54,150 nt of DNA from a bacterium (GTDB lineage: Bacteria > Armatimonadota > Zipacnadia > Zipacnadales > UBA11051). Within the stretch, counting starts at the first letter, position 1. Each line of letters opens with the position of its first letter. A program made the translations under genes and the position numbers. The stretch spans positions 1 to 54,150 of the forward strand of contig JAUVVY010000028.1 in the NCBI GenBank assembly GCA_030604405.1, in the 5' to 3' direction. Under the pieces are notes generated by a model. That model was not told the origin of the DNA. It ran no database searches and saw only the letters and a program-made list of their open reading frames with translations. Below, piece by piece: positions 22,832 to 54,150 of this stretch.

Positions 22832-24739
22832 TCATCTTGTCAGCAACGGCGCTACCGTCTCTGCGGGATAGTAGCAGCAAAAGCCGTATGCCCCGGTGCC
22901 ACAGAGCAGGCCGAAATTCGGGCTGCCTGCACGGGCGTTTGCCGACCGCACAGCCGTCATGCTGTAACAGGGCGGGATCAGCGCGCGCGGCAACGATGCA
23001 GGATCGCCAGGCAAAGCGAGAGTGGGATAGTTCCAGCGCTGATTGGTACAGTCAAAATGGAACCAGCCACGAGCCGTGCCGACCAGAAAGCTCCACTTGT
23101 CGCCGTTCAATATCAGCGGCTCGGCATAGCGCAGTCCTAGCAGGCCGGCATGCAGGCGAGCAGAAGTCTCATCACCATCGCCCAAAAAGCCCAGCAAGCG
23201 CACCCCCTTATTGAACACGGGCATACCGCCGCCCTTAGGCACGACGTTTTCAAAGTACATCAGCCCGCCCTCGGGCATCACAAACTGCGGCAGCGGGCTG
23301 TCAGATCGAGCCGTCGCCTCGCCCGCGGGAATCGGCGCCGTGCCGACGAACAGATCCGCGTCGCCGTCGTCATCGTAGTCAAGCAGCTCAATTGCGCTAA
23401 GGCCGCTGACCGTTATCGGCGCACCGGCCATCTTCAAGTGTCCAGCATAACGCAGCCCGCCCTGATTGAGCCATAGTTGGACCGTGCCCCCGGCATTGCC
23501 AACAACCAGGTCCAGGGCTCCGTCGCCGTTGATGTCCACCAGGCGTGGCCATGCGCACGGCGTTGCCTCAGAGGCATCTCCGGCACGGATCGGATCGCCA
23601 TTGACGTCAGTGACAAGGCACGGCCGCTGATATGAGTCGCCGCGTTTGAAGCATACCCAGATGTGCCCCGATGCGCCGCCGGCTAGAACGTCCGTGGCTC
23701 CGTCGCCATCGTAGTCAGCCGCTGTCACCGCCGCGTAGCGCCCGACATCGAACGGCACCTGCACGCCTCGGAGATACCCGCTGAATTGCAGACCCTCGGT
23801 GGCGAATTGGTGGAGACTGACGAAGCCATCTTCGTCACCGAGTAGTATCTCCACTGAGCCGTCGGCGTCGTAATCCACAATGGTAGGTGAGGCGGCGCGG
23901 ATGTGACTGAGCTGTACTGGCAAGGCGACGGGCTCGGCAAGACCTTGGGGAGTTCCCCGGTAGAAATGCAGACTGCCGGCCGCATCGCCGACGAGTAGAT
24001 CGAGAATGCCGTCGCCATTGCAGTCGCCTGCAGTGGGGCGGGCACGGCCCCGGACCGCAACCGGAACTCCGGCTGTGTTTGCCAGCGGCGCAGCCGCGGA
24101 AAGAGCAGGCTTTCCTGCTGAGCTGTTTGCCACCCACCACACAGCGCCCGCCTCGTCACCTACCAGCAGGTCGAGGTCCCCGTCGCCATCGAAATCAACT
24201 GCCTCCGGAGCCAGGCCGCGCACCTGCATCTGGCCGAAAAGCGGCTTGTTGTCGGCGGTGAGCAACTGGCGCGCCACGGCCAGTTGCTCATAGCCCCAAT
24301 AGACCAGCAGCCGGTTGTTATGGCCGAGCAGCAGGTCGGTCTTGCCGTCGCTGTCAAGATCGCACAACTTGGGACAGCTCGCAGAGCCGTCGCCGACATC
24401 TGTCAGTGTCGCCGCGTGCTTGAGCATGACCTGCGGAGGGCCGAAATTGAGCTCGGCCGTCTGTTCATACAGCACCAGGTCGCCGTAGTCGGAGCCGAGC
24501 AGCAGGTCGGCTTTGCCGTCGCCGGTGTAATCGCCCCACGTTGGGTTGGCGTAATCACCGGCAGTCAGGCGGCCCTCCGCGACGATGATCGGCTCCCCCT
24601 GCAGATAGGGAATCGGCCCCCTGCTGATCAACATGCCAAAGCGTTCGGCATGGGCGCAGGCGGCAACGACGAGGCAGCTCACTATCGCGCAAGCGAAGCC
24701 AAAAGCGGCTTGTCGGGCGGCTGGGCTATTTGTACGCAT
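22832..24739 (-). CDS. Secreted FG-GAP/VCBS-repeat protein with eight calcium-loop repeats
   Basis: 635 residues with a signal peptide (hydrophobic 12-31, AHA cut). Eight repeats each carry a D-x-D/N-x-D-G calcium loop followed by a D-L-L-x-G-type strand: DYTGDGKADLLLG, DLDSDGKTDLLLG, DFDGDGDLDLLVG, DCNGDGILDLLVG, DYDADGSVEILLG, DYDGDGATDVLAG, DINGDGALDLVVG, DYDDDGDADLFVG. This spacing builds an integrin-alpha-like beta-propeller, probably eight-bladed or seven plus cap. It is likely exported and ligand-binding; no enzyme domain is visible. It starts 12 bases after the aminotransferase stop, so it belongs to that operon. Confidence 0.85.
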   Translation of the reverse strand: MRTNSPAARQAAFGFACAIVSCLVVAACAHAERFGMLISRGPIPYLQGEPIIVAEGRLTAGDYANPTWGDYTGDGKADLLLGSDYGDLVLYEQTAELNFGPPQVMLKHAATLTDVGDGSASCPKLCDLDSDGKTDLLLGHNNRLLVYWGYEQLAVARQLLTADNKPLFGQMQVRGLAPEAVDFDGDGDLDLLVGDEAGAVWWVANSSAGKPALSAAAPLANTAGVPVAVRGRARPTAGDCNGDGILDLLVGDAAGSLHFYRGTPQGLAEPVALPVQLSHIRAASPTIVDYDADGSVEILLGDEDGFVSLHQFATEGLQFSGYLRGVQVPFDVGRYAAVTAADYDGDGATDVLAGGASGHIWVCFKRGDSYQRPCLVTDVNGDPIRAGDASEATPCAWPRLVDINGDGALDLVVGNAGGTVQLWLNQGGLRYAGHLKMAGAPITVSGLSAIELLDYDDDGDADLFVGTAPIPAGEATARSDSPLPQFVMPEGGLMYFENVVPKGGGMPVFNKGVRLLGFLGDGDETSARLHAGLLGLRYAEPLILNGDKWSFLVGTARGWFHFDCTNQRWNYPTLALPGDPASLPRALIPPCYSMTAVRSANARAGSPNFGLLCGTGAYGFCCYYPAETVAPLLTR

Positions 24740-35711: not shown

Positions 35712-36347
35712 CTATTTCGGCCTGATGATGTATTGCTTGGTTTCCTTTTCGGCCCGTACCGGCACGTAGCGCGTGTCGGTGGTGAGCATGAACTGATCGA
35801 GTTTCGCGCCGTCTTCGCGGTTCTGGAAGCGGATGGTGTGGACGCCCTGGGTGAGGCTGATACGCAGGCCGCGGACCCAGTGCCAGCGCTGGTAAGTGCC
35901 ATCATTGCCGAACACCATTTGGGGCTTGTCGTCAATCTTCAGCAGGAATGAGTTGCCGCAGCCATCATACCAGTGCACACGGCCCCACAAGTTGTAGGTG
36001 CCGGTCTTGGGAATCTTCACCTTGAACAAAGCATAGCCGGTGTCAAAGGGCGCACCCTCGGTAGCACCATGCGGCTGCTGCAGCGGTATGTGGACATAGG
36101 CGCTGCCGGATGCGACCTGGCTTGAGGCCTTCGCCATGGACGACTTAAGGGTGTAGTAATGCTCCGCCTCCACGACGACCTTGGCCGCGCTGGCCGCCGC
36201 CGCGCTAATCAGCAACATGCTTAGCACGATCGCAAATACCCACCCATCGCGTAGGTCGGGCTTCCGGTTCGACAAGCTCACCGCCCTGAGCGAAGTCGAA
36301 GGGCAGCCCGACACCGAAATGCTCAGTGTCTTGTTGGCCGTATTCAT
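35712..36347 (-). CDS. Secreted CBM6/35-like protein with a repeat-derived N-terminus
   Basis: 211 residues. ATG 36347 has a strong AAGGAG eight bases upstream, so this start is favoured. Residues about 12-35 (SVSGCPSTSLRAVSLSNRKP and on) are encoded by a nested dispersed repeat at 36253-36310; behind it comes the hydrophobic part of a signal peptide (36-55, ending SAAAASAA) whose basic head is supplied by the repeat. The mature part has VEAEHYYTLKSS and a GTYNLWGRVHWYDG / HTIRFQNREDGAKLDQF pattern like CBM6/35 sugar-binding domains. It is 33 bases upstream of the LamG-type gene in transcription order. Function: probable extracellular sugar binding. Confidence 0.75.
   Translation of the reverse strand: MNTANKTLSISVSGCPSTSLRAVSLSNRKPDLRDGWVFAIVLSMLLISAAAASAAKVVVEAEHYYTLKSSMAKASSQVASGSAYVHIPLQQPHGATEGAPFDTGYALFKVKIPKTGTYNLWGRVHWYDGCGNSFLLKIDDKPQMVFGNDGTYQRWHWVRGLRISLTQGVHTIRFQNREDGAKLDQFMLTTDTRYVPVRAEKETKQYIIRPK
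36253..36310. repeat. Repeat A interrupted by a 39-base palindrome, inside a coding region
   Basis: GTCGGGCTTCC (36253-36263) and AGCCCGAC (36303-36310) are the two halves of repeat A, which elsewhere run together (48650-48669, 48809-48828). Between them lies a 39-base imperfect palindrome (36264-36302) with arms TTCGACAAGCTCA and TGAGC..GTCGAA, a repeat of the kind often seen scattered in bacterial DNA. 39 is a multiple of three, so the reading frame of 35712-36347 is kept. Confidence 0.8.
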
Positions 36348-36417
36348 TTCTTATTCTCCTTGCGGAAGCAATGCGTTCGCCGTGCGAATTAGAAGCAACA
36401 GTGTGCCTGGGCCGCAA

Positions 36418-42562: not shown

Positions 42563-42707
42563 GCCGTTGTCGCTGGCCGTTTCGGCGTGCAGAGCTCCCT
42601 GGGATAGCGTTGTGCGTCCGTATTCGGCCCATCCGAAAGACAACCGCTCAACCTTTGAGCGCGTAGGTCGGGCTTTCCAGCCCGACACCGTTGTTGTTGA
42701 GTCGTCC

Positions 42708-48556: not shown

Positions 48557-48682
48557 TCAGCACCTCCGGGCATGATCCAGGACTATTATCGCGTAGGTCA
48601 AGCTTCCCCAAAGAATCCCGTGGGTCCGGCTTCCCCAAAAAACCGCGTGGGTCGGGCTTCCAGCCCGACAGCCGTTGTCGTC

Positions 48683-48735: not shown

Positions 48736-48842
48736 CGCAGGACGCTATCCTGGCGAACTCTCCACACCGAAACGGCCAACGACAACGGCTTCCCCCAAAA
48801 AACCCCGTGGGTCGGGCTTCCAGCCCGACTCCGTCGCCTTTC

Positions 48843-53979: not shown

Positions 53980-54041
53980 CGCGGGCAATCTGCTATTGCC
54001 TCGCTTGCGCTTCCCCCAAGAACCCCGTGGGTCGGGCTTCC

Positions 54042-54150
54042 ACTGTAGTTATGCAAAAAATTGTTGGTAGAAGCAAGATAAGAGGGGGCATATGGCGAAC
54101 ACAGGCTTAAATGCAGCAACATTCAATGCCGAGCTCGCCAAGGATGCCGC
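54042..54150 (+). mobile_element. End of an IS-like element (right contig end)
   Basis: The same 109 bases as 6-114, inverted. The element end ACTGTAGTTATGCAAAAAAT follows directly on GTCGGGCTTCC (54031-54041 region), the left half of repeat A, so the insertion point lies within a repeat-A copy. The left contig end shows the other half of a repeat-A copy. Confidence 0.6.
54092..54150 (+). CDS. N-terminal fragment of the same element-borne protein as at 1-64
   Basis: ATG 54092 with AGAGGGGG just upstream; 19 codons and part of a 20th are visible before the contig ends, identical to those at 1-64. Likely a transposase, not proven; see the entry at 1-64. Confidence 0.5.
   Translation, partial: MANTGLNAATFNAELAKDA

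Follow-up and report, generated by a model that had tools for sequence, protein, structure and literature searches.

Palindromic repeats nested in the signal-peptide region of a predicted secreted-protein gene: a 39-bp element in the loop of a GTAG-type REP

Background

Short palindromes lying within other short palindromes have reportedly been seen in Nostoc, where Elhai et al. are said to have described, in 2008, SDR5 elements inside HIP1, the elements measuring 21-27 nt and nested copies occurring as well. Palindromic repeats are also known from coding sequences. In the parts of PMC3733652 drawn on here, in-frame intragenic REPs are described, together with the warning that many REPs at the N-termini of predicted open reading frames are in fact extragenic, the start codon having been misannotated. 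The same parts of that source treat the Rickettsia palindromic elements (RPEs), which lie in-frame in open reading frames and of which N-terminal examples are expressed (PMC3733652). REPs may themselves be targets: ISPsy8, ISRm22, IS1397, and IS621 are insertion sequences that target REPs, and the IS110-type recombinases form a family with members known to do so (PMC1525189). Here, we describe a gene in which a REP near the 5′ end is itself interrupted by a second repeat, and we follow both repeats through related genomes.

Results

The window, meaning the whole stretch of DNA that was analysed (54,150 nucleotides), belongs to a genome of 4.37 Mb, designated G000; its sister genome is G001. 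The window carries a terminal 119-nt inverted repeat (positions 6-124 and 54032-54150, 97%), and a dispersed repeat is therefore the probable break point of the assembly. Positions 23342-24544 hold degenerate direct repeats of 40-50 nt with spacings that are multiples of three, and are probably a gene for a tandem-repeat protein.

The REP hairpin GTCGGGCTTCCAGCCCGAC, hereafter A, is split by exactly 39 bp at the 5′ end of a gene on the minus strand. The features of the locus, the nested part of which spans 36251-36312, are as follows:

35712-36347, minus strand: gene for a predicted secreted, CBM6-like protein of 211 aa; open frame, with the nested repeats as residues 12-35
36356-36361, minus strand: AAGGAG, candidate ribosome-binding site of the start at 36347; GTCTGGAGGAAT stands in the same place in L029 and L030
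36204-36239, minus strand: predicted signal-peptide hydrophobic core VFAIVLSMLLIS, residues 37-48, with the repeat-derived stretch immediately before it
36251-36254, plus strand: GTAG tag of A
36255-36264, plus strand: left part of A, GTCGGGCTTC; A is intact at the same locus of the sister
36265-36303, plus strand: palindromic element B, 39 bp, CGGTTCGACAAGCTCACCGCCCTGAGCGAAGTCGAAGGG, in the loop of A; net 13 codons, missing in the sister orthologue
36304-36312, plus strand: right part of A, CAGCCCGAC

The split point is the hairpin loop, GGGCTTC^CAGCCC; the initial annotation had placed it after TTCC, an equivalent placement with one C being common to both. That annotation had claimed that a repeat is split exactly by a 39-base palindrome of a second repeat family, that the frame is kept, and that residues 12-35 come from repeats and stand directly before the signal core. 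The insert indeed measures 39 nt between the two parts of A, the frame is open over 211 codons straight through it (ORF reading), and the hydropathy peak (2.81, 12-residue window) lies at residue 37, where the core begins. The second family was confirmed by pattern search with up to three mismatches, which found 40 copies of B in G000, 32 in G001, and none in G002-G006, while the reversed-pattern control found 0; a second exact match to the 37-nt core of the insert lies at G000:C26. Only the symmetry did not hold in full, since B has the stated length but is an imperfect palindrome. An Rfam search over the region gave no match. The nested arrangement is not due to chance. The facts of the initial annotation are right and its meaning very probably so; it did not recognise A as an older in-frame insertion, nor B as a general mobile element that enters REP loops.

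Element A is a REP of the GTAG kind. Its fold has 8 bp in the stem and TCC in the loop (z -5.8), and about 80 copies were found in G000 with up to two mismatches. Gene context was surveyed over 1.64 of the 4.37 Mb with gene calls from a hexamer model. In this portion, 33 of 37 copies are intergenic, and the 19 perfect A-type hairpins carry the tags GTAG (9), GTGG (9), and ATAG (1). A-type REPs also stand directly upstream of RAYT (PF01797) genes, both in G000 (L154, two copies) and in G001 (L168). Tag and stem-loop, high and mostly extragenic copy number, and RAYT association are thus all present. A gapped pattern, TCGGGC...GCCCGA, was too loose to serve as a search query. The window itself holds uninserted copies of A:

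48651-48669, plus strand: uninserted copy of A
48807-48829, plus strand: uninserted copy of A with GTGG tag
42663-42686, plus strand: uninserted copy of A with GTAG tag and 6-nt tip

The protein of the nested gene has orthologues in 35 of 41 related genomes (protein search) and gives a weak match to CBM_6, under the Pfam cut-off. A comparison with sister genomes, which the initial annotation had proposed as a way to find the uninserted form, did reveal it. In G001 (JALGTY010000159.1, a Candidatus Zipacnadia MAG; L010/L029), the same gene reads MNTANNTPTISVSGWKPDLRAGWVCAIVLAMLLIS... and contains an intact A hairpin, GTCGGGCTGGAAGCCCGAC, where G000 has the split one. The A-derived 33 nt are identical at 32 positions between the two genomes, and the G000 gene minus 39 bp is 597 nt long, exactly the length of the G001 gene. 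The orthologue of G002 (JAUWOG010000075.1; L030) reads MKNTRNSLTVIALVVAVALLTASSATAAKIV and has neither A nor B, and those of G003 and G004 have short leaders and no repeats. The locus is therefore seen in three states, with no repeat in G002, A only in G001, and A plus B in G000.

Repeats are where metagenome-type assemblies break, and an inverted repeat stands at the ends of this contig, which raises the question of whether A and B were joined artificially by misassembly. This is extremely improbable: a usual read is longer than the 58-bp structure, the gene is in frame on both sides of that structure, and the same A+B structure recurs at other loci in two independent genomes.

Whether the repeats are coding depends on the start codon. 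Reading the reverse strand from 36347 gives ATGAATACGGCC..., with AAGGAG 5′ of it, and the initial annotation had taken this as support for translation from the ATG at 36347. The start codon of the repeat-free orthologue in G002 aligns upstream of the repeat site (MKNTRNSLT against MNTANNTPT), and the GTCTGGAGGAAT ribosome-binding region before the start is common to G001 and G002; both observations strengthen that claim. Orthologues starting at residues 36-44, which would have spoken against it, were sought and none was found. Since the start at 36347 is homologous in repeat-free relatives and lies upstream of the repeats, translation very probably runs through the repeats, which would then make up the signal-peptide n-region. 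The changes between G000 and G001 in codons 1-11, before the repeats, fall 0/2/5 on codon positions 1/2/3, a coding-like distribution of only 7 changes.

The hydrophobic core is kept in all three states of the locus, including the repeat-free orthologues, and is preceded by 9 residues in G002, 23 in G001, and 36 in G000, where the n-region would be long for a signal peptide. In the G001 protein, both K/R residues before the core derive from A, and there are no others. This suggests that the repeat residues are tolerated as n-region and may partly provide its positive charge.

Alternatively, the repeats could form a 5′ untranslated leader, with translation from an internal GTG or ATG after them and no repeat-derived coding sequence. 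The warning in the cited parts of PMC3733652 on start misannotation at the N-termini of REP-bearing ORFs applies here, and our hexamer coding model did put the start later, at 36275, because repeat sequence scores poorly. Against this, the repeat-free orthologue has its start aligned 5′ of the repeats, the ribosome-binding region is common to L029 and L030, both insertions kept the frame, and the candidate internal starts (residues 42-45) would leave a signal peptide without a positive n-region. We regard an untranslated leader as quite unlikely. Translation from the ATG at 36347 is well supported by these comparisons and very probably occurs.

The copies of B follow a strict rule of placement. 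The 71 copies in G000 and G001 were examined together with their flanks, and once the 39 nt were set aside, 58 proved to lie at the loop bond of a resident REP hairpin, TTC^CAG. Both orientations use this same bond, 42 copies as GCTTC^CAGC and 16 in reverse (GCTG^GAAGC, or near variants such as GCTG^GAAAGC). Among the 13 copies off the canonical site, about half are themselves nested in a further B copy, at TTCGA^CAG, so that B lies in B in A (as at L123, L124, L142, and L149), and two are the guanylate kinase copies discussed below. The 9-mer GCTTCCAGC occurs 29 times inside genes outside REPs (1.64 Mb), and none of the B copies read lies at such an intragenic non-REP site; selection against gene insertions could explain part of this absence.

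In the phylum, B was found in 7 of 251 genomes, all seven in one order; it was found neither in viral contigs nor in plasmids. Another genus, g16, provides a further view of the target. There, the loop of GTAGGCGAGGTTCTCCAACCTCGCC holds B at CTC^CA, and from the sequences flanking B a REP unlike A in sequence was predicted, GTAGGCGAGGTTCTC^CAACCTCGCC. Empty matches to this REP were then found in numbers (54 in G037, 15 in G030, and 17 in G038), and thus two REP families whose stems differ have B at one and the same place in the loop (TC^CA).

Other inserts were seen at such tips. A 26-bp element (such as CCGCAGGTCCTGAGCTTGTCGAAGGG) occupies B's position at the tip of A at L175:8353, L172:4021, and L195:10023. 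Both sister genomes also have a larger composite hairpin family with the stem GGTGAGAATGC...GCATTCTCAGC (L060, L140, L114), whose second tip varies in content between copies and between the genomes.

Both repeats occur in-frame in further genes. In the 1.64-Mb survey, no intragenic element was more than about 100 nt from a gene end, the pattern to be expected if insertions persist only where they are tolerated. In a cysteine synthase (L190:14752-14770, G000:C63), A lies in-frame in a loop before the conserved IVTVLPDTGERYLST, and the sister orthologue is without it. In a prepilin-like gene (L248:5079-5097, G000:C76), A lies in the leader, which makes this a second export leader with a repeat. 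Guanylate kinase (gmk) carries 13 B-derived codons near its C-terminus in G000 (L233:19284-19901) and G001 (L148). This B-like C-terminus in both genomes hinted at gmk as the origin of B, an origin rejected in view of the gmk genes of G002-G004, in which the 13 codons are absent. A supposed B in acetate kinase (L232) was rejected, its position being upstream of the likely true start.

An IS3-type OrfA also has 13 in-frame B-derived codons, within its HTH_Tnp_1 domain (PEQIINKL-PFGFAQGGEPAEP-RQAEVEL). It was found at L330 (G001:C486:300-1100), L322 (G037:C152:5500-6200), and L325 (G030:C249:3600-4200). The same insertion is thus present in two bacterial families, that of G001 and that of G037, and the IS3-type element could carry B between genomes.

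Filled and empty sites were compared between the sister genomes for eleven B loci of G000 with matching stretches in G001, all but L006 and L110 with a clear state in G001 (the empty-site query comprised 33 of the 40 prepared B blocks, reaching as far as L114). At five of the eleven, G001 is empty by exactly 39 bp and keeps A (L003/L304, L053/L308, L114/L313, L005/L309, and L112/L312). At L007/L306, the same tip holds a different occupant in each genome. At three (L051, L073, and L111), the whole composite is missing in G001, so larger gains or deletions occur too. Including the locus of the window, six pairs are filled in G000, and at L060/L250 the roles are exchanged, with B in G001 and an empty site in G000. 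Each of these seven orthologous pairs differs by exactly 39 bp, and no target-site duplication, a feature of IS and MITE insertions, was seen in any of them. Four B loci are common to G000 and G001.

These data bear on the order of events at our locus. A and B might have inserted as one composite, and in the sister B might then have been precisely excised, or removed through conversion with one of many plain A copies. Some A+B composites do lie at sites common to both genomes (L071/L078, L077/L050, and L057/L066), and whole composites have been gained or lost at the three loci named above. However, relatives have A without any B, B occurs outside A (in gmk, the IS3-type orfA, other B copies, and a different REP), filled and empty pairs run in both directions, and a deletion at the nested site would have no more than 1 bp of junction homology to use. 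A composite origin is accordingly improbable to us. A is present in G002 and G003, both without B, and is therefore older than B.

It is highly likely that A came first, in the common ancestor of G000 and G001, and that B then entered its loop in G000 only, the frame being kept twice. The GTAG-tagged A would have inserted in-frame (about 13-15 codons) into the n-region; for REPs of its kind, REP-associated Y1 tyrosine transposases (RAYTs) are the presumed agents of movement. Later, B would have entered between TTC and CAG of the loop, adding 13 codons without disturbing the frame and without target duplication. At this locus, the difference between the sisters thus appears to reflect insertion of B rather than excision.

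Discussion

The use of a single loop bond, in both orientations and with no target duplication, speaks against ordinary cut-and-paste elements. The most likely chemistry would be that a putative Y1/HUH-type enzyme, acting in trans, integrates B into the loop of an extruded hairpin while that loop is single-stranded; we favour it because B targets a loop and leaves no duplication. The constant TC^CA target and the lack of duplication fit IS200/IS605-like Y1 transposition, but with both orientations in use this mechanism is tentative. RAYTs are present in G000 and G001 and are candidate enzymes, with no direct link to B. IS110 was rejected as the mobiliser, as no IS110-type transposase (PF02371) was found in either genome; in the same survey (IS110-type, G000 and G001), no full-length transposase-encoding parent of B was found.

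Movement by a dedicated enzyme may not be needed if a further palindrome is copied into the hairpin loop during replication, by slippage or by a switch of template. Hairpin loops do vary much, with inserts of 26 bp, 39 bp, and longer nested ones at one tip, and the occupant of L007/L306 differs between genomes. Yet B has fixed 39-bp boundaries, two orientations, and a genome-wide scatter, as a defined element would, and the edges of its filled and empty sites are clean. Such copying, by slippage or template switching, is in our judgement an unlikely source of the B copies.

Returning to transposition, we tentatively propose, as a possibility short of a probable one, that B represents a class of mobile palindromes so far undescribed and ultra-small (39 bp, and 26 bp in a cousin with the same position). 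Integration of such elements would recognise the single-stranded loop of an extruded REP and not its stem. REPs would then act as landing pads on which palindromes stack in palindromes, and a length that is a multiple of three would let B spread through genes, even inside an IS transposase gene.

If the reading of the locus given above is correct, the three states document in three steps how a signal peptide acquired coding sequence from mobile repeats, and the earlier states survive in sister genomes. The copies of B also yield a testable movement rule for tiny non-coding elements, namely one loop position, no duplication, either orientation, and two REP families. Such a system makes it possible to measure the transposition of elements below 100 bp, and whether or not hairpin loops are landing sites.

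In comparison with known systems, A resembles the GTAG REPs of REP/RAYT REPtrons in its GTAG/GTGG tag, 8-bp stem, 3-nt loop, high and mostly intergenic copy number, and copies upstream of RAYT genes, while a second 39-bp element in the REP loop, present here, is not described in the parts of PMC3733652 compared. The start-codon question raised for REPs in those parts is addressed here through a repeat-free orthologue.

Like RPEs, A and B are small palindromes found in-frame in unrelated functional genes, which is a likeness of behaviour only, with no homology claimed. This feature is seen at 35712-36347, the gmk C-terminus, the cysteine synthase loop, the prepilin leader, and the IS3-type orfA. 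The host differs from that of RPEs, and here one palindrome lies within another at one exact site. Compared with the small dispersed repeats reported for Nostoc, B is longer, sits in a REP loop in both orientations, and has filled and empty sites between sister genomes.

The insertion sequences that target REPs offer a parallel in site choice: ISRm22 enters the palindromy axis, and the REP entered by ISPsy8 is perfectly rebuilt on joining the flanks, both as at B sites (PMC1525189). ISPsy8, ISRm22, IS1397, and IS621 are full insertion sequences with a transposase (PMC1525189), whereas B has 39 bp and no protein of its own. So small an element targeting REP loops is new relative to the REP, RPE, and IS literature compared here, and the system combines known kinds (intragenic REPs, RPEs, and elements at REP axes) in a form not matched in that literature.
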